A stretch of 64,000 nucleotides of DNA from Sipunculus nudus (lineage: Eukaryota; Annelida; Sipuncula; Golfingiida; Sipunculidae), in NCBI GenBank assembly GCA_026874595.1, contig CM049310.1, forward strand, positions 30,009,558 to 30,073,557, read 5' to 3'. The first letter of the stretch is position 1. Every line of letters starts with the position of its first letter. The position numbers were made by a program, and so were the translations under genes. Shown piece by piece: positions 34,501 to 63,620 of the stretch. The notes beneath the pieces were generated by a model that worked only from the letters and a program-made list of their open reading frames with translations, did no database searches and had not been told where the DNA came from.

Positions 34501-37500
34501 CTGGTGGCGCCACCTGTATTTTTCAATGTTCACGAATTGTTTTCTCCATTTTTGAGACCTTTAAGGATGTAGTTATCTGTCAACAGGGTACAAATCGTAA
34601 CGACTGGACCTAGAATCTTCGTTCTTGACACACAGGGAGACCCATGATAAGTCTCCATGGAAACCTGAAATTTGGTCTCTGTTACCCATATCCTTTGAGC
34701 TATGGCACTCCAAAGTACAGCTCAGAATAATGGAAAATTTGATACAAAAGCTAAAGTATCTGAACAACTAATGCAGAGATAACCATAATTGTTTGCATGG
34801 ATATTGATCATGGAGTGTTTCATAAGTTTCTGCAGACTGGTGGCACCACCTGTATTTGTTCGGTTTTTTTTACGAAATTTTTCTGTATTTTTGAGACCTT
34901 TAAAGATATGAACATCTGTTAACAGGGCACAAATCATAAAAACTGGACCAAGAATCTTCATTCTTGACACACAGGGAGACCCATGAAAAGTCTCCATGGA
35001 AACTTGAAATTAGGTCTCTGTTACCCATATTCTTTAAGCTGTATGGGTCCAAAATACCCCCCCCCCCCCAGAATAATGGAAAATTTGATACAAAAACTGC
35101 AGTATTTCAATAACTACAACAATGATGGTCATGATTTTCGGCATACATATTGATCAGCTGTTCCATCAGTTTCTGCAGACTGGGTGTGCCACCTCTATTT
35201 TTTTTCAAATTTTTACGAATTTTTTTCTTTTTTTTTTGAGACCTTTAAAGATGTGGTTATCTGTCAACAGGGTACAAATCGCAACAACTGGACCTAGAAT
35301 CTTCATTCTTGTCATGCAAGGAGGCCCATGAAAGGTGCCTGTGGAAACTTGAAATTAGGTCTCTGTTACCCATATCCTTCAAGCTATAGGACTCCGAAGT
35401 ATCCCTCAGAATAATGGACAATTTGATACAAAAACTGAAGTATCTGAACAACTAATGCAGAGATCACCATGATTTTTTGCATGGATATTGACCATTAAGT
35501 GTTTTTATTAGTTTCTGCAGACTGGTGGAGCCACCTGTATTTTTGTATCCGCCAAAACGAAGTTTTGCGGATACTATGTTTTTGACCGAGTTCCTCCGCC
35601 GCGGCGGCGTTCGTTTCCAGAGAGCTCCTCGGAGACTAATGGACCGATTTTTCCCAAACTTACACCTATTATCGGGTCACATGTGAACTGGTGCCTAACC
35701 AATTTGCGTTGACCTCTGACCTTTCCTCTCTATCCAGTGTCCATTTGTGGGTCTGTTTCCACTCATAAACCCTCATATCTCGGGAACCGTTTGACCGATC
35801 AGGAAATAAAATTGATACAAATGTAGCCCTTGGATTGCTTTATAACATACACAAAAATGGTGGCGCCACCTGTAACCATGTTTGCACAGTGTCCATCTGT
35901 TCATCTGCCTTGGGTTAAAATCACTCATATCTCTGCAGTGAATTGACTAATTCACCTGAAATTCGTCATGCGTATACATCCAGGATAGCTTTCTTGATTT
36001 TATGACAGGTGGCGCCACCTACGTTCACGTTCACGCTGATGACATCCAAGCTTATATCTTGGGAACCGTTTGACCGATCAGGAAATAAAATTTATACAAA
36101 TGTAGCCCTTTGATAGCTCTGTAACATACACAAAAAATGGTGGCGCCACCTGTAACAATGTTTGCACAGCGTCTGTCTGTTAGTCTGCCGTGGCCTAAAA
36201 TCACTCATTTCTCTGTAGTGGTTCGACATAACTGCCTAAAATTTTGCAGGTTTATACATCGTGGACAGCTTTCTTGATTTTATGACAGGTGGCGCCACCT
36301 ACATTCTAGTTAACGCTGCACACATCCAAGCTCATATCTCAGGAACCATTTGACCGATTGGGCCAAAATTGTGCATGTGTTTAGATCTCACATAGGTCTT
36401 TATCATACACAAAACTGGAGGGGTTACCTGCAAAGATTTTTGCACAGTGTTTGTCTGTTTGTCTGCCATGGGCAAAAATCGCTCATATACATGTAGTGGT
36501 TTGACTTTTCTGCCTAAAATTTTGCAGGTGTATACAACTTGGACAGCTTTCTGGATTTGTGGTAGGTGGCACAACCTACATACACATTTAGGCTGCAGAC
36601 ATCCATGCTAATATGCAACATACCTCACTCTATTTCCCCTTGCCACTCAATCCATGCCTCACTATCCGATTTTGGCAGATACATGTAGTCACTTGTCGGT
36701 TACCTGTATTCTAGTTTTAAAAGTTTACACATTTTTCTCTATTTTTGAGGTATATAAATACAGACTAAATCTTGGCCTGTTGGTTAATCTGTTTGATGCT
36801 TCAGTTGAATGGGTATATACTACCATTCTAATGATAAAATTTCCTTTTGCGAATCTCTTCCCAGTCAGCTGAGCGTCATGACCCATGGGTCATGGAGTTT
36901 TTGGAGTTTGATTGAAAATGGAAAGACCTACAAAGAGAAAAAATTCAGTGATTCTGTGTTTATCAAGCAAAATTATATACCAGTAATATCTAGGTAAAGA
37001 GGCTGTAGTCCTAAACCTTTGAAAGTTTCTAAAACTTAAAAAAGTTTCAAGGTGCTTCATGAAATAATGAAAAAGAAAGTAATACATAAAAATGGCCACA
37101 GAAGAATTGATGAATTAGTCTGTTATAATGATTTTAAGAATAGATATAATTGGAAATTTAACTTGTGTTGATTTAGTATATTTTTATTTGGTTGATATTA
37201 AAAAGAAATTGTACAGTTTTGTAGAAGTGATAATGTTGATTGCTGGCCAGGGAATAAGCATATATATGCCATAGAATAGAGGGTGTGTGCCTCTTAAACA
37301 AATGTAGACTCCAGATCTAATACAAAACTCAATTTCAGGTGTGAACTCTTTGAATAGCTTAGATAATCTTCATTAAATGTTACTCCATGCTGCTTGTATC
37401 TTTTTTACCAAGTATAAATGTATTTCCACAATCTAGAAGATATTAAATTCACATCAGCCCATAAGGACATTCTTGGGCATTGCACTCTTCTTTTAATGAT

Positions 37501-49100: not shown

Positions 49101-50430
49101 CGGTTGTTCATTATACAGCCTACAGTTTACAGCTCTTTTGACCATAATAACGCCTACAGCTTACAGTTCTGTTGACCATGATACAGCCTGCAGTTTACAG
49201 CTCTATTGACAATGATACAGCCTACAGTTCACAGCTCTGTTAAACATATAACAGCCTACAGCTTACAGCTCTGTTGACATTGATATCGCCTACAGTTTCC
49301 AGCTCAGTTGACCTTGATACAGCCTTTATTTAACAGCTCTGTTGGCCAACAGTTGTTCTGCTGACCATATTACGGATTACTGTTTACAGCTCTATTGACC
49401 ATGATGCGGCCTCATTTTTACATCTCTATTGACCATGATACAGCCTCATTTACAGCTCTTATGACCATGATTAAGGCCTACAGCTGACAGCTGATCATGA
49501 TACGGCCTACAGCTCTGTTGACCATGATACAGCCTATATTTTACAGATTTGTTGACTGTGATAGGGCCTACAGTTTAGTTCTGCTGACCATGATACAGAT
49601 TACAGTTGGTTTGACCATGATATTGGCCTACAGTTTACAGCTGTTGACCATGATATGGCCTTAAGTTTTCAGCCGTGTTACCATGAAACAGCCTACAGCT
49701 CTGCTAATACAGCCGTCAGCTAACAGCTCTGTCAACCATGCTAGGCCCTATATTTTACAGATCTGTTGACCGTGATAGGACTACAGTTTAGTTCTGCTGA
49801 CCATGATACAGCCTACAGTTTACAGCTTTGTTGACCATGACAGGCCTACAGTTTTACAACTCTGTTGACCATGATATGACCTAGTTTCCAGCACTGTTGA
49901 CCATGATATACCTATAGTTTAAAGCTGTTGACCATGATAATGGCCTACAGTTTAGTTCTGCTGACAATGATATGGATTATAGTTTACAGCTCTGTTTACA
50001 ATGATACAGCCTACAGCTATGTTGACCATGATATGGCCTACAGCTTGCAGCTCTGTTGAACATGAAAAGGCCAAACAATGTGGAGCATTGTGGTGTGTAA
50101 TGGCAAAGGTGCCGGACTTGTGATTCAGTATCACGGGTTCACTTCTGCACAAAGAACCTAAAGCAAGGTGTCAGTACTGTGCTTATGTCCACCCAGCATT
50201 ACAAACGGGCACTGGATTCAGTACCATCTGCGTATGACAGACCTTAGCAAACCTTAAAGCCATGTGTGGGCTGTGCAAGGTCCCCAGGGAGCTAACACTG
50301 AGAAGTTAATTGTACAGTCTTCTGAGCCAGAAACTGGTAAGGGGACTTACAACCTGCAACTTGTAATTTTAACTTTAACAACTCTGTTGACCATGACAAT
50401 GCCTACAGTTAACAGCTCTGTTTAAAATGG
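49100..50430. repeat. minisatellite, about 35-bp unit, interrupted by a SINE
   Basis: Dozens of diverged copies of cagctctgttgaccatgata followed by cagcctacagttta, with unit length varying from about 25 to 45 bases. The array is broken at about 50075-50380 by a tRNA-like SINE and resumes for one to two units afterwards. Confidence 0.88.
50075..50380 (+). mobile_element. tRNA-derived SINE
   Basis: It contains an A-box-like TGGCAAAGGTGCCGG (50101-50115) and a B-box-like GGTTCACTTCT (50136-50146) at tRNA-like spacing. A non-tRNA body follows (cccagcattacaaacgggca; gggctgtgcaaggtcccc) and it ends taattttaac. It sits cleanly inside a minisatellite. This is a polymerase III promoter-type retroposon rather than a functional tRNA gene; clear target duplications were not established. 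Confidence 0.55.
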
Positions 50431-53621: not shown

Positions 53622-53694
53622 TTAAAATATGTCAAGGTCATCAGGTGCATCAAGATCCCTGTATTCTATGATGCTGCGAGGGTCCGCTCTTCCT
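53622..53694 (-). CDS. SRRT: SRRT terminal coding exon
   Basis: Acceptor gttttgacag; it encodes [20 protein letters not shown] and DIF, then TAA at 53624-53622. The human C-terminus is [21 protein letters not shown], so the cap-binding-complex-contacting tail is intact. Confidence 0.96.
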
Positions 53695-56600
53695 CTGTCA
53701 AAACAAAAACACGATAGTGGGATAATGGGGACTTACTCTGCATGTCATTAAAATTATACATTTGTAATACTAACTTCAGAATTTCTCTTACAATTTTGAG
53801 CAATGCATATTTTTATCTATAGATTGCTCAATATACAGTCTTATGAACGACATAACAGTACACAATAAGTTGTTTGCAAAACAGACATCTGGTTAAGCAT
53901 CTTGTTAAAGTCTGAGGTTAAAGTGGAGTGGAAGAAGAAATGGTTTGTTTTAAAAGAAAGTAGGCTTCATCACCATGTTCTCCACACCAGGTCAGTTTAC
54001 ACATATTACTTTTGTTCAAGTATTCATAAATAATACATCTGGCATACTCATTCCCTTATGGTGATAAATTATTACTAATTACAGATGCTGAAGTCTTAGA
54101 TTTATGCTTGCTAGACTGTGTTTGAAATTTCTTAAAAGTCATCACAGGAACTTCCGCCTTTTACTTTAACAACTGTTTAAACAGTTTTATGTCAATGTTA
54201 TGTACATGCAACTACCCTTCACTATGTGCTAAAACAATACATATTGTGTGCTTAAAACACTTTTATATATGAAAGACATCAGAAAATAATATTCACAGGT
54301 GCAGCATTCAATGAAGAATAGCTGAATATTAACAAGTGCACCGCAAATGTACATGATACGCCCGTCATGTATCTGGTGACCTCTGACCTCATTAAATATG
54401 CGTGAATTTTGATGAGAAGGTAATTCAGGTGAGAACTCTATTGATAAATATGTATAATGAGTTTCATGAAAATCCACAGGAATTTAGGTCAGTCACCAAG
54501 GTGCCTCCAAAGTGCGGTGACTTGTGGCCTCATTAAATGTGCAAGGATTTTGCTGGAAATTAAACTTAGACAAGATATTTTATTAACAATTCTGATGAGT
54601 TTTATCAAAATCCTTCATATTCTTCATAAGTTATTGCGGGGACACCACTAAGTAGCCTAGTGACCCGTGACCTTATTAAATATGTGTGGATGTTGCCCAT
54701 AATTGAACTCATGCGAGATAATCTGTTGATAAGTAGTTATGGTGGGTTTCGTGAAAATCCATGAAAGCTCCATTAAGTTATCACTGCAAAACTAAAAGTA
54801 AACAGACATATGGACAGACAAACAGTGGGTATATACCATAATACTCCCGTCATATGACGGGCATATAATAAAGTTGAATGAAAGTGTTTAATCCAGTCAT
54901 TATAATATTTCATGTGCCTGTGATGTCATTCTGGTCCTTTAATCAAGTGATCTTTCACCTGTGAGCAGATGTTATCGTTATTAAAATGATCACAAAAACA
55001 ACAACTGGTTCATATATTCACCTGTCTCTCCTTGGTAAAAAGTTTTCTCGGTGGTTTCTGTTGTCACGGCGAAACATGTCCGGGCCTCCGTGCCCTTGGT
55101 AACGGGGAGATGTATGGAACCCACCACCTGAAACAACATTCCTGGTATCAGTGTTTGCTATTTCCTTAACAGCACTATGCATACAGGCAAATATCTTAAT
55201 TTCAATGGAGCTTCAAAAATTGTCTCTGATGATCAAACACTAAAATATGATTTTGGATTAAAAAAAGCAGTCACACTGAATTGAACATTATCAGACCACT
55301 GATAAACAGTATCGGAACATCATTCATCATATATCTAAATTTGAGAACTGAAATCAAAACTTTATAGTAGAAACTGTCATAAAAAGAAAATCACCAGATG
55401 TTATGAAGACTGATTTATGTTCCTGAGTATAATAAGTTACACCATTTAATTATAACATTGGCAAACTAGGGATGGATATTGTGAAGCAGAATACACAGTA
55501 TGTTTATTAAGCAGCTACAAGTGTTTGCCACATCCTCTCTAGCACGTAAACTGCAAATGTTTGATGAGCCTATGCCTGTTGAAGGCATTTCTTACTTGAA
55601 TGTTCATCTGAAGTCAACAATTTCACGCAAGATGTTTGTCCAACGAACGCTTTGTAATTTACCAGCACCTGATCCTGAGCAGACTAATGCCACAGACTTT
55701 TTTAATGTTTATCATCATACAGGATCTTGGCTGACAAGGTTATCAATACATCAATCAATGCAAAAGGACTGATGATCATCAGTGGCTCCGACAAGAATCA
55801 AAACAATTACTGATGAATTAATGTTAATGAAGAATTGATATGATTATCAATGGCTCTGACACAAGAATTGAAATGATTATCAATGGCTCTGACAAAGGTT
55901 GATGAAACAATGATACACTATACAGAGGTACAATGAACAAAACATATTTTTTTAATTTTCTTAATTTGTATCATACAGGAAACACTGCAATAAAGATTGT
56001 GAATTTTAAGTGCTATGTAGGCCTATTTGTCGGCTTCATTAGTATATTGATCTCTCATCCATATGGCTGTCAGATACTTTCATGTGGGTACATTTTACAG
56101 ACTCATATCATATGAACATATCAATATTTTTTTCAATAACACATTATCAATGTTCACACTTCTGCTGACAGAAAGGCCTATATTATGATTTAGCCATACA
56201 ACACAAACTGCTGATAAACAAGGGTGCTACACATACAACACAAACTACTGTTTCACAAGGGCGAAACACATACAACACAACAAGCCACCCTTCTGAATAC
56301 ACACCTCTATTACGACGGTTATCTTCAAGTAGAGGCGTCATGTGATCAACAAGCAGGATATGAAAATAAAAGACAGATCTCATCAGAATAACTAAATTTT
56401 TGTGGGGAAATAAGACTGATCTTGTCAGCGCAGCTCTCACTAGCTGAGATAATAAAAAACAACTCAACAACCCTTCTCATCAGCGCAGATCTCAATTCAT
56501 TAAGAGACCCCATACTGCAGGGTTTGTAATGGTGCATTTCAAGTATGTGTTTTTCTTTTTGAGATACAAAGCTTTATTATCAAATGTTCAAATGCATGGA

Positions 56601-59600
56601 AAAATATTGTCAGGTTTTAGGTAGCACTTCTTTATCCCATCATGCTATTCTCTATCTCTGCTTCGTGTTTCATTGGGTCCTCTATTTAACTTTTTTAACT
56701 GGTGGTTGTTTAAAAAAATATATATTTTTATGCAATGATCTTAATTCTGAACATATTAGAAAGGCTTCTGTTATGCAGCAGTTCAAAGGTAAAGGCTTTA
56801 ATTTAGTCTCATTGTAGTAAAATACAAAAAGACAGAAAAGTATCTGGGAGGACACTTTAAAAAGCTAGACTATATCATATAGAATCCAACAGACCAATTT
56901 CAATTTAAGGTTACCATCCTTTTTAGCAATGTCATATCTTTTTCCTGGGGGGAGGGGGGGAAGGGTACCTATCAAATGGATTTTTTTCATTAAGCCTGGC
57001 TAACATATAAAAAATATCACAAAAATTTTATTCTCCTTCCAATTCATAGGCAATTATAACAATTTGCATAAATCAGCATAAATCCTTTAACTTCACCTAA
57101 AATTTACCTGTTGCTAAGGCCCCATGCTGGCCAACATGGGTACAAATTAAGTCTTCACTTAATGGGGTATTTTTTGAGTATTCCACTGGCTCTTGATTGG
57201 AAAGCTAAGAATGCAGAAATAAATTATGAGATCTACAATACCTTATGTAATGAACCTTGGTCTATGCACTGCAAGTAACAGGCTGGTTTTCAATCGTCAT
57301 AAGGTGTAAGCCTACTAATTACATACAACACGAGTTACTGTAGCTTTCTGTGGTTTTCATTCCTTACTCACCTGGATACATACTATGTGGACTTTGATGT
57401 TGATTGTAGCCCCCTCCTCCCATCATGCCTTGCTGCGGGGGACCCTGGTAGCTGCCACCCCCACCCCCCTGACGGTAATTGTCTCGTTGCCCGCCCCCTG
57501 CATGACCACCACCAGCTTGTTGTCGGTTGCCGGGATGGTCAGGAAGCTGAGGACGTTTCGGGTCCATCAAGTAGTGGTTGAAAAAAGAAACCTGAAACAA
57601 TCCTGTATGTATTGAGCAGCAGTATTAACTATAATAAACAAAGACCATGACATCATGAGTACGCTGGTCTTTACCTGTAACCCTATCCATGTAACCCTAT
57701 CCATCTGGTCAATCATTCTGTCTACAGAAAGTACATTGTACATTCAATCTTTCTAAATAGTGCATTTCTCTTAAGTTAATTTGTTAATTTAATCAAATAT
57801 GTTACTTAGTCTATCAAGTTATCCTTTTGTCCATTTGTTTGTTCTGTGCAGGCCTAACACAGTAACATTTCTTACAAAATTTCACATCATTGAAATTAAC
57901 AATGCCAAATTACATGTACCAGGCAGGTCTAGCAAATCACAGCAAATAGCTTAGGAAAATTATAAAACTAGTCCTGTACATGGAAGGATATTAAAGTGTG
58001 GGATGACTGGTCAGAGAAAATCAAGACTTGTAAACAAAAGAAAGACAGTAACAGTAAGACATTTTGGTGTACTGATTCTACGCTTGGATATTTTAAAATT
58101 TCCTGCATTTATTGACAACAGTCTCAGCTAATTGTAGAACATATCAGCAAACCACAGTGTATGAAAGCTTGGAGAATTGTTCAATAAACGGTATCGTGTA
58201 TGGTTTGTAAGTGAACAAGTAAATACTTTATGACATAGCTGTATAAACAGATTCTGATCTTTTAAATGGCTGTGACTTTACCCTGATAAAGCTTTCAACT
58301 GACCTCTTGTTTGACTTCTTCTATTTTTTCTCCATGTTTGTTGAATATGTGCTTCCTGACAAACTCGGGTCCCTTGAACTTTTTCCCACTGAGAGGACAT
58401 AACCATTTATCTTTGGCAAGCTCCTGTGTGTTGGCCGTGATAAATTTTTCGACCTCTGTGATAGAAGGTCAAGGACAATTAATCAGATGTCTCTAGGGAA
58501 ATCACTCAACTCCGAAAACTTAAATAAAGAAACAGTTCTATTTCAGGGATTTAGAACTACAAGGCTTGAAATGGACAAAGTCAGAAAATATATTAAAATT
58601 AAAAAAAAAAAAAAAGAATCATGGTAATTGCACTTGTTCTTACAATTCACTGATCACTGAAAAAGATCTGAACAAATAATGTAATTTATAGCTGACCAAT
58701 TAATATAAATGTCAATGACTTTTCTGAGACTGTATAAATATGAATGCCATTGACTGAGGTAAGAATCAGAAACAGTATTGGTGGATGGTACCCATATTTA
58801 AATGACCATGTGGCAAATGATATTATTTCTATCATTCACTCATCAAAATGTCACTTCCTAATCTGATCAAGTGGACAAAGAGAATATTCAGATTACCTGT
58901 ATCTTTCTGATACTGATAACATTGACAGCTGCTGTCCATGGCCATCACTACAATATCTGCTGTCTTTATTAATACAAATCTACACTCTATAAAATAAATG
59001 CTTATGTTTCTATAGTAAAGGATATGCCTCTGGATCTTTCTTCCCAAGTCGCTGGACTTCTTGGTCGTCAAGTTTCAACTTAAGTTCTATGACTGGTTTT
59101 ACCTTGTTCTCAAAACTGGAGATCCATTCGTTAACTGCAAGCACAAAATAAACAAGTTTTTCCCTGCTATGGTGGAACCATCACAAGTGCATGTATGTAT
59201 ACTATTTGGAGTACAAACAATGAACAAAGGAGGCAGTCTGTAACACATATAAAGTTGTCTAGAATGATAGCTGTGCATCAGAATGAAGAATGTTGAAAAA
59301 TTCAGCAGCTGGACATGTGAAAATAGCACATACACTGGGTGTGAACAGGGCAGCATAATCTGAAATAATTGTTTCCAAGCTCTCCTTGATGTCTCTTGTC
59401 TGAATTTCATTGCAATAGTCAAAATTACTCAAATTTAGCCAATATTACATTGAAATATCTAAGAAGCTTCATTTACTATCTTGTGTGCTCAACTTATTCA
59501 GTGTTTTACCCTCTTTTTATAAATGTGTCAATTATAGAAGTTTGCTTTAGGTGTTAGTTAATATTAGAATAGCAGATTGTGTTGTTTGCACATTTGACAT

Positions 59601-60101
59601 GTCACATTTGTTAGCTCTTGTATTATGTTATAAAGGTGTTACGACGGCAAATGTGAACTGCACCATGATTAACAAACCAAAGCTCCTACCTGGTTGGTAG
59701 CCAGCTATGTGACTCACCGCATGGCCTGAATTTGTTCATGACAGAAAATAATGACTATTAATCTAAGCTGAGGGCATGCCACCTTGGATCTCCATGTCTA
59801 AAATGGTTCTTGCCATTTGTTGGCTCATCTAGGCCGTCAGATCAGACTTTCAACAATTCCATTTGGATACTAAAAAATACTTGTGTAACTGCAGATACAA
59901 TGTATTTGAATTAATGTTACTGGTAAATTCAAAAGCCTCTGACTCACCATCATTCTGCGTGACTTTTCCACCGGGTGAGGGCCCTCTTGCGTGCATGATT
60001 CCACAGCGGTGAGGCATCTCATCCTCGTTTGGGTACTCTACAGCACTGTAGTAGTCGTAGGAATGGACTATACGCAGGTACAGAATCATACGGTCCAACA
60101 C
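53622..60101 (-). CDS. SRRT: SRRT/ARS2 nuclear RNA effector, 3' part of a spliced gene
   Basis: Six - strand exons join in frame: 60101-59948, 59134-59026, 58457-58304, 57591-57372, 55127-55022, 53694-53622. They encode about 270 C-terminal residues of serrate/ARS2. Recognisable in order: [20 protein letters not shown] with DEMPHRCGI, then [14 protein letters not shown], the zinc-finger segment [18 protein letters not shown] followed by [19 protein letters not shown], a Gly/Gln/Pro-rich stretch, and the end [14 protein letters not shown]. Known family role: bridge between the nuclear cap-binding complex and RNA fate factors (miRNA processing, snRNA and histone 3' ends, exosome targeting). The acidic C-terminal tail contacts the cap-binding complex. 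Upstream exons are right of the window. The gene converges with DENND1. Confidence 0.95.
54340..54868 (+). mobile_element. small HINE-like element with CCCGTCAT ends
   Basis: Near the left end GATACGCCCGTCATG (54356-54370). At the right end the perfect 16-base palindrome CCCGTCATATGACGGG (54846-54861), containing the left phrase inverted. The core has three diverged units of about 140-160 bp (ctgacctcattaaatatg-gtg...tgaaaatcca) at about 54380, 54525 and 54660. It lies in the SRRT intron 55021-53695; part of a unit is repeated, inverted, at 1-133. Confidence 0.65.
55022..55127 (-). CDS. SRRT: SRRT exon, Arg/Gly-rich
   Basis: Acceptor ttgtttcag, donor gtgaat. It reads [19 protein letters not shown] and then [16 protein letters not shown]. 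Length and phase (2 bases in, 2 out) connect its neighbours. Confidence 0.88.
55128..57371 (-). other. SRRT intron with short tandem repeats
   Basis: It holds a three-copy repeat at 55775-55905 (gattatcaatggctctgaca) and a two-to-three-copy repeat at 56197-56281 (acatacaacacaaact). A 90-codon + frame at 55500-55772 is unusually protein-like but unidentified. A G-run lies near 56947-56960. Confidence 0.5.
57372..57591 (-). CDS. SRRT: SRRT exon, Gly/Gln-rich linker
   Basis: Acceptor ttgtttcag, then [19 protein letters not shown], matching human VAFFNNFLTDAKRPALPE. The rest ([20 protein letters not shown] and onward) is low-complexity Gly/Gln/Pro, where vertebrates have a Pro/Gly-rich stretch. 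Donor gtgagt. Confidence 0.93.
58304..58457 (-). CDS. SRRT: SRRT exon, zinc-finger segment
   Basis: It reads (A)[18 protein letters not shown], then [14 protein letters not shown] and [19 protein letters not shown], nearly identical to vertebrate SRRT. The cysteine and the paired histidines of the family's zinc-finger segment are present. Donor gtcagt, phase 0. Confidence 0.96.
58458..59025 (-). other. SRRT: U12-type (AT-AC) intron of SRRT
   Basis: Read on the - strand, this 568-base intron begins ATATCCTTT and ends in TATCAC. TCCTTGAC lies 11 bases before the end, a close match to the minor-spliceosome branch-point consensus TTCCTTRAY. Joining GC to AGAGGTC restores the frame with a single residue replacing human Gln. 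A GC-AG alternative (gcatat ... cacagag) would also stay in frame but deletes two conserved positions. Confidence 0.85.
59026..59134 (-). CDS. SRRT: SRRT exon before a U12-type intron
   Basis: Acceptor gtgcttgcag; it reads (V)[18 protein letters not shown] and ends QRLGKKDPE plus GC. No GT lies at the end of the conserved segment; the exon is followed directly by ATATCCTTT, the U12 AT-AC donor consensus. Human SRRT continues KDPEQEVEKF, and the AT-AC junction here gives KDPEAEVEKF. Confidence 0.9.
59948..60101 (-). CDS. SRRT: SRRT exon, ARS2 core domain
   Basis: On the - strand, acceptor gatgtgtag precedes [18 protein letters not shown] and the exon continues [20 protein letters not shown]. 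Human SRRT has [18 protein letters not shown] and [20 protein letters not shown]. Donor gtgagt; ends with one base of a codon. Confidence 0.95.
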
Positions 60102-60350: not shown

Positions 60351-63300
60351 ACCAGAATATGGGTAGTCGACAAGCCACTATGTGTATCCGCAGAAATCTG
60401 AGTGGGACGGGTGAAGTGAGGCATGGATTAAGTGGCAAGGGGAATACAGCGTGGTGTGTTGGATATTAGCATGGATGTCTGCAGCTAAAACGTGAATGTA
60501 GGTGGTGCCACCTGTCATAAAATCGAGAAAATTGTCCAGGATGTATAAACCTGCAAAATTTCAGGTGGATAAGTCAAACCACTGTCGAGATATGAGTGAT
60601 TTTATCCCAAGGCAGATCAACAGATGGATGCTGTGCACAAGTGGTTGCAGGTGGCGCCAAGAGCTATGTGAGATCTATACACATGATAAATTTTGGCCTA
60701 ATCAGTCAAACGGTTCCCGAGATATGAGCTTGGATGCCTGCAGAGTAAATGTGAATGTAGGTGGCGACACCTGTCATAAAATCGAGAAAGCTGTCAAGGA
60801 TGTAAAATACCTGCAAAATTTCAGGTGGATAAGTCAAACCACTGCTGAGATATGAGTGATTTTAACCTAAGGCAGATGAACAGATGGATGTTGTGCATAA
60901 ATGGTTGCAGGTGGCACAACCAGTTTTGGGTATGATGAAGAGCTATGTGAGATCTTCACACATGCAAAATTTTGGCCTAATCAGTCAAACAGTTCCCGAG
61001 ATATGAGCTTGGATGTCTGCAGAGTAAATGTGAATGTAGGTGGCGCCACCTGTCATAAAATCGAGAAACCTGTCCATGATGTATAAACCTGCAAAATTTC
61101 AGGTGGATAAGTCAAACCACTGCTGAGATATGAGCGATTTTATCCAAAGGCAGATGAACAGATGGATGCTGTGCATAAGTGGTTGCAGGTGGCGCCACCA
61201 GTTTTGCCTATGATGAAGACCTATGTGAGATCTATACACAAGCAAAATTTTGGCCCAATCGGTCAAACTGTTCCCAAGATATGAGCTTGAATGTCTGCAC
61301 AGTAAATGTGAATGTAGGTGGCGCCACCTGTCATAAAATCGAGATAGCTGTGCAGGATGTATAAACCTGCAAAATTTCAGGTGGATAAGTCATAACCACT
61401 GCTGAGATATGAGTAATATTATCCCAAGGCAGATGAACAGATGGACACTGGGCATAAATGGTTGCAGGTGGCACCACCAGTTTTGCCTATGATGAAGAGC
61501 TATGTGAGATCTATACACAAGCAATATTTTGGCCTAATCGGTCAAACGGTTCCCGAGATATTTGCTTGAATGTCTTCATAGTAAATGTAAATGTAGGTGG
61601 CGACACCTGTCATAAAATCGAGAAAGCTGTCAAGGATGTATAAACCTGCAAAATTTCAGGTGGATAAGTCAAACCACTGCTGAGATATGAGTGATTTTAA
61701 ACTAAGGCAGATGAACAGATGGACGCTGTGCATAAATAGTTGCAGGTGGCACCACCAGTTTTGCCTATGATGAAGAGCTATGTGAGATCTAGACACATGC
61801 AAAATTTTTGCCTAATCTGTCAAACGGTTCCCGAGATATGAGCTTGAATGTCTGCAGAGTAAATGTGAATGTAGGTGGCGACACCTGTCATAAAATCAAG
61901 AAACCTGTCCAGGATGTATAAAACTGCAAAAATTCAGGTGGATAAGTCAAACCACTGCTGGGATATGAGTGATTTTATCATAAGGCAGATGAACAGATGG
62001 ACGCTGTGCATAAGTGGTTGCAGGTGGCCCCACCAGTTTTGCCTATGATGAAGAGCTATGTGAGATCTATACACGTGCAAAGTTTTTGCCCAATCAGTCA
62101 AATGGTTCCAGAGATATGAGCTTGGATGTCTGCAGTGTAAATGTGAATGTAGGTGGCGCCACCTGTCATAAATCGAGAAAGCTGTCCAGGATGTAAAATA
62201 CCTGCAAAATTTCAGGTGGATAAGTCAAACCACTGTTGAGATATGAGTGATATTATCCAAAGGCAGATGAACAGATGGATGCTGTGCATAAGTGGTTGCA
62301 GGTGGCGCCACCAGTTTTGCCTATGATGAAGAGCTATGTGAGATCTATACGCAAGCAAAATTTTGGCCCAATCGGTCAAACTGTTCCCAAGATATGAGCT
62401 TGAATGTCTGCATAGTAAATGTGAATGTAGGTGGTGCCACCTGTCATAAAATCGAGATAGCTGTGCAGGATGTATAAACCTGCAAAATTTCAGGTGGATA
62501 AGTCATAACCACTGCTGAGATATGAATAATATTATCCCAAGGCAGATCAACAGATGGACACTGGGCATACATGGTTGCAGGTGGCACCACCAGTTTTGCC
62601 TATGATGAAGAGCTATGTGAGATCTATACACAAGCAATATTTTGGCCCAATCGGTCAAACGGTTCCGGAGATATTTGCTTGAATGTCTGCATAGTAAATG
62701 TAAATGTAGGTGGCGACACCTGTCATAAAATCGAGAAAGCTGTCAAGGATGTATAAACCTGCAAAATTTCAGGTGGATAAGTCAAACCACTGCTGAGATA
62801 TGAGTGATTTTAACCTAAGGCAGATGAACAGATGGACGCTGTGCATAAATAGTTGCAGGTGGCACCACCAGTTTTGCCTATGATGAAGAGCTATGTGAGA
62901 TCTAGACACATGCAAAATTTTGGCCTAATCTGTCAAACGGTTCCCGAGATATGAGCTTGAATGTCTGCAGAGTAAATGTGAATGTAGGTGGCGACACCTG
63001 TCATAAAATCAAGAAACCTGTCCAGGATGTATAAAACTGCAAAAATTCAGGTGGATAAGTCAAACCACTGCTGAGATACGAGTGATTTTATCCAAAGGCA
63101 GATGAACAGATGGACGCTGTGCATAAGTGGTTGCAGGTGGCACCACCAGTTTTGCCTAATATGAAGAGCTATGTAAGATCTCTACACATGCAAAATTTTG
63201 GCCCTATCGGTCAAACAGTTCCCGAGATATGAGCTTGGATGGCTGCAGAGTAAATGTGAATGTAGGTGGTGCCACCTGTCATAAAATCGAGAAAGCTGTG

Positions 63301-63620
63301 CAGAATGTGTAAACCTAAAAAATTTCAGGTGGATAAGCCAAACCACTGCTGAGATATGAGTAATATTATCCCAAGGCAGATGAACAGATGGACGCTGTGC
63401 ATAAATGGTTGCAGGAGGCACCACCAGTTTTGCCTATGATGAAGAGCTATGTGAGGGCTACATTTGTGCAAAATTTTTAGCCTGATCGGTCAAACGGTTC
63501 CTGAGATATGTGGGTTTATGTGAGGAAACAGACGCACAAATGGACACTGGGCAGCAAGGAAAGGTCAGATGTCAACCAAAAATGAAGGCGCAGCAGTTCA
63601 CATGTGACCTGATGATAAAC
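60351..63620 (-). mobile_element. HINE-like element, family 1 copy 3, expanded core, left end missing
   Basis: Reverse orientation. Its right end is at 60351 (ATTCTGG in place of ATTCTAG) with the hairpin TAGTGGCTTGTCGACTA and gcggatac at about 60393-60400. Homology to copies 1 and 2 continues to the gggtcacatgtgaactg region (about 63595-63620), then stops, so about 130 bases of the GTATCCGCC end are absent. The core has about 11 dimer units, compared with about four in the other copies. Confidence 0.82.
60480..63470. repeat. 278-bp dimeric satellite array with 1113-bp higher-order period
   Basis: Units start near 60640, 60903, 61181, 61460, 61738, 62016, 62294, 62573, 62851, 63129 and 63408. 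Each consists of two related halves of about 139 bp (caaaattttggcctaatcgg-tcaaacggttcccgagatat versus caaaatttcaggtggataag-tcaaaccactgctgagatat), each half with a GGTGG-G-CACC palindrome. Variants recur four units apart. Short open frames across it are by-products of the repeat. Confidence 0.92.

Follow-up and report, generated by a model that had tools for sequence, protein, structure and literature searches.

Minor Introns in Genes of the Cap-Binding Complex

Minor introns, removed by the minor spliceosome, are a rare class, of which vertebrates have hundreds. About 26% of those in human are of the AT-AC subtype, and enrichment of minor introns has been reported for Mollusca (PMC10639083). 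Cases close to the one presented here are found in genes for the cap-binding complex. The RNA-sorting protein ARS2 works with this complex and contacts the snRNA export adaptor PHAX (PMC12350170). Intron 4 of plant CBP20 is a U12 intron of the AT-AC subtype, and moving or replacing it disturbs expression; the CBP20 genes of human, chicken and sea anemone have U12 introns as well (PMC5932401). Mouse Ncbp1 and Ncbp2 were both named as minor-intron genes (PMC8034651), and a nested U2/U12 arrangement is known from vertebrate NCBP2 (PMC8329584; PMC3564746). For ARS2 itself, human intron 18 has a TG acceptor (PMC2374985). The paper texts found in our search do not name SRRT as a minor-intron gene; supplementary gene lists, where human SRRT may be included, were outside this search.

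The SRRT/ARS2 Gene of Sipunculus nudus

The 64-kb stretch of S. nudus DNA analyzed here (the window) encodes the 3' part of an SRRT (ARS2) gene on the minus strand. Its exons at 59948-60101, 59026-59134, 58304-58457, 57372-57591 and 55022-55127, and the last coding exon at 53622-53694, join to an ARS2 reading frame that is open through to the stop codon. The gene identity given in the original prediction was confirmed, as the product matches Pfam ARS2 (PF04959, E 2e-56) and human ARS2 in the PDB (8pmp/6f7j, E about 1e-72). A genome search placed same-strand exons for SERRATE_Ars2_N upstream of the window; they form the 5' part of the gene, and the N-terminal domain, the ARS2 domain and the C-terminus are thus all found in one gene. 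SRRT has a single matching locus in the genome, and scanning viral contigs yielded no relatives.

Four of the introns within the window (59947-59135, 58303-57592, 57371-55128 and 55021-53695) are of the GT-AG type, with the donors GTGAGT, GTCAGT, GTGAGT and GTGAAT. The remaining one, at 58458-59025, separates the exon that ends in KKDPE plus the bases GC from the exon that encodes EVEKF and the zinc-finger region. Upstream of the exon that starts at 60101, the SRRT intron holds a tandem repeat of 278 bp (60659-63510, about 10 copies, 90% alike). A similar array of 280-bp repeats is located at 35775-36614, and arrays of 33-34-bp repeats (TACAGCTCTGTTGACCATGATA...) at 49109-50072. An Rfam search of the window gave no match.

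Sequence Elements of the AT-AC Intron

The intron at 58458-59025 (minus strand) is 568 nt long and in phase 2, between codon bases 2 and 3. Read from 59025 to 58458, with slashes for splice junctions, its context is GAGGC/ATATCCTTT...TCCTTGAC-CTTCTATCAC/AGAGG; a longer read of the same borders gives GAGGC/ATATCCTTTACT...TTAATTGTCCTTGACCTTCTATCAC/AGAGGTCG. The 5' splice site ATATCCTTT (59017-59025) agrees at 9 of 9 positions with the U12 consensus /ATATCCTT(T), and the branch-point sequence TCCTTGAC (58468-58475) agrees at 8 of 8 with TCCTTRAC. The branch A is at 58469 and is followed by 11 intron nucleotides, with 10 after the motif, and the intron ends in CAC/ (58458-58460), that is, with an AC terminus. 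The span, donor start, branch motif and terminus that had been predicted are thus exact on the minus strand. Two features speak against a U12 reading. Firstly, the branch motif is preceded by G, where T is the commonest base. Secondly, an AG directly follows the AC terminus (CACAG/AGG) and offers a nearby AG acceptor; with this donor it shifts the frame.

By itself, neither motif stands out in a 64-kb sequence: RTATCCTTT was seen three times (2.0 expected) and TCCTTRAC six times (4.0 expected). The presence of both at one junction is not chance. Under a first-order Markov model the probability of ATATCCTTT at a fixed junction is 9.8e-6 and that of TCCTTRAC at any of nine positions 2.8e-4, which together give 2.7e-9 (about 3e-9). 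A scan of 90 kb of the gene strand, made with approximate donor and branch matrices built from the consensus, ranked the SRRT branch site second and the donor fourth. The same scan, with this limit of its matrices, revealed no other convincing donor-branch pair that would make a second U12 intron in SRRT.

Choice of Splice Junction and Class

Within -90 to +60 nt for the donor and ±60 nt for the acceptor, 55 in-frame pairs of known or near-known classes were enumerated, and the AT-AC pair at 59025 and 58458 is the only one that preserves the length of the protein. It yields KDPEAEVEKF, which aligns without gaps to KDPEQEVEKF of human ARS2 (PDB), as predicted. The predicted lack of a GT donor at the exon border also held, since no enumerated GT-AG pair preserves the protein. 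Sliding the join by one base in either direction produces the identical mRNA from CA-CA or TA-CA termini, neither of which is a known class.

The nearest alternative pair would be a U2-type GC-AG intron with its donor two bases earlier and its acceptor four bases later (GAG/GCATAT...CACAGAG/GTC). This pair is in frame and belongs to a known rare class, but the resulting KDPE-VEKF loses two residues that are present in human ARS2. GC donors usually need a strong U1 match, and GAG/GCATAT is a poor U1 site. As it would also leave two exact U12 motifs unexplained (3e-9), we consider a GC-AG intron very unlikely. An assembly or sequencing error that masks an ordinary GT donor, or a pseudogene copy, seems extremely improbable: SRRT has one locus, its other borders are GT-AG, the frame is intact to the stop, and an error would not produce two matching U12 motifs.

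The two spliceosomes could also compete at this site in a twintron-like manner, with, for example, the exonic donor AAG/GTAAAA, 77 nt upstream, joined to CACAGAG/GTC beside normal U12-type splicing. This GT pair is in frame, and a nested arrangement is known for vertebrate NCBP2 (PMC8329584; PMC3564746). Its use would delete part of the domain. Among 55 enumerated pairs, however, chance alone should yield in-frame joins of this kind, and we consider such competition quite unlikely. Based on the exact donor and branch motifs, their right spacing and the only junction of a known class that keeps both frame and length, the SRRT intron is almost certainly a genuine minor-class AT-AC intron in a single SRRT gene.

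Components of the Minor Spliceosome

The genome contains minor snRNA loci for U12 (two), U11, U4atac and U6atac (two), all above the Rfam cut-offs, and a homolog of RNPC3 (U11/U12-65K, E 6e-33). These matches indicate that a minor spliceosome is present in the organism. A candidate for U11-48K was rejected because its PF05253 zinc-finger match looks like GTSF1 instead. The RNPC3 match (G000:C3:9351584-9351841, minus strand) is the sole one in the genome and lies in a single open frame of 511 codons, so that RNPC3 may be intronless here. The two U12 snRNA genes are located about 36 Mb apart on contig G000:C9; they are slightly diverged, look intact and have an upstream CACACCACA motif in common.

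The snRNAs of this genome are complementary to both sites of the SRRT intron. AAAGGGT of U11 pairs with ATCCTTT of the donor (7 bp including a G-U pair) and AAAGGA of U6atac with TCCTTT (6 bp), while TAAGGA of U12 pairs with TCCTTG, where the next base is the branch A outside the helix. Together with the two matching motifs and the kept frame, this complementarity upholds the U12-type AT-AC class of the original prediction. It also bears on removal by the major (U2) spliceosome, which cuts out a known divergent subclass of AT-AC introns that is without U12 donor and branch motifs. U2-spliced AT-AC introns do exist (Wu and Krainer 1997, as cited in PMC2374985), but here both U12 motifs show a full match and are complementary to U11, U6atac and U12, and we regard a U2-spliced intron as highly improbable. 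Removal by the minor spliceosome is what the sequence suggests for SRRT.

Partner Genes and Other Genes Examined

The conserved U12 intron of plant CBP20 (PMC5932401) prompted a look at the partners of ARS2. NCBP2 (CBP20; locus G000:C9:34375779-34377434, minus strand) has a GT-AG intron of putative U12 type with the donor GTATCCTTT and the branch site TTCTTTAAC; the intron is about 1.4 kb, and the join GTAGA/GTATCCTTTATC...TTCTTTAACATGGAAATAG/ATATTACC gives FCFVEYYQREEAENCMRY. NCBP1 (CBP80) has a putative U12-type GT-AG intron of 2026 nt (G000:C8:67501681-67503706, plus strand) with the same donor GTATCCTTT and the branch site ACCTTGAC, and the join CAAGTT/GTATCCTTTCTG...ACCTTGACCAGAACATCAG/CTTGCC gives GSMPQVLAQATEMLYERLDTM. 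Each branch site is one base off TCCTTRAC, and both introns are U12-type by motif. As NCBP1 and NCBP2 are already known as minor-intron genes, they serve as positive controls and suggest that such introns are retained in this genome. One exon of PHAX was matched in the genome, and no U12 intron was seen there.

Intron 2 of sodium-channel genes is AT-AC in vertebrates. It was tried as a further positive control and rejected, as it ends in TTTCAG, TGCAG or CACAG in three paralogues of this genome and is U2-like. The three genes are voltage-gated sodium-channel-like, and U2-type CAG sites end the intron that precedes their TFVV/TFIV exon.

Judged by motifs, the genes for all subunits of the cap-binding-ARS2 complex (CBP20, CBP80 and ARS2) contain a U12-type intron here. 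Minor introns are said to be overrepresented in genes for RNA processing. For a naive estimate we assumed intron counts of 3, 22 and 19. With these guessed counts and about 0.3% minor introns (PMC10639083), the probability of minor introns in all three genes is about 3e-5, a value weakened by the prior knowledge on CBP20, by the many complexes that could have been chosen and by the corresponding choice of partners. Because of this pre-selection, the enrichment among RNA-processing genes and the many complexes available, the trio is not taken as proof of coordinated regulation.

Possible Consequences for ARS2 Expression

During splicing, U11 would bind the 5' splice site of the SRRT intron while U12 binds the branch site, and U6atac would then take the place of U11 at the 5' splice site. 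Cuts at /AT and AC/ would restore GC/A, an Ala codon between KDPE and EVEKF. If the intron is retained, the frame continues through AYPLL to a stop codon ahead of the zinc finger, the C-terminus and three further introns. A stop ahead of later exon junctions generally leads to transcript decay by the nonsense-mediated pathway. With three exon junctions after the read-through stop, decay is expected for SRRT, and transcripts left unspliced, or spliced slowly, would be unproductive. According to an earlier proposal, expression is limited by the slow removal of U12-type introns (PMC3584512). A dependence of ARS2 expression on minor-spliceosome activity through this intron is plausible. The intron adds ARS2 to the cap-binding-complex genes with a minor intron, and in this lineage minor-spliceosome activity would bear on the complex as a whole.

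The contacts between ARS2, the cap-binding complex and PHAX raise a feedback loop between minor splicing and the ARS2 complex as a possibility only. If CBP20, CBP80 and ARS2 all depend on the minor spliceosome, minor splicing could control a complex with a part in the sorting and processing of snRNAs, among them U11, U12 and U4atac, and of other capped transcripts; we consider a loop of this kind unlikely. With the SRRT intron, feedback between minor splicing and the sorting of capped RNAs becomes open to test.

Comparison with Known Systems

The SRRT intron has the ATATCCTTT donor, the TCCTTRAC motif 10-15 nt from the end and the AC terminus of the U12-type AT-AC introns of animals, and like these it is one among ordinary GT-AG introns of its gene. 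Its anatomy differs in nothing from this class, of which it is an ordinary member. The minor introns of NCBP1 and NCBP2 lie in genes of the same cap-binding-ARS2 complex, but in this genome their subtype is GT-AG and that of the SRRT intron AT-AC. U12 intron 4 of plant CBP20 (PMC5932401) is likewise AT-AC and located in a cap-binding-complex gene; the gene and the position differ. As the intron class is already known, the sequence makes a solid case for classifying the SRRT intron of S. nudus as a further example of U12-type AT-AC introns that involves no new mechanism.
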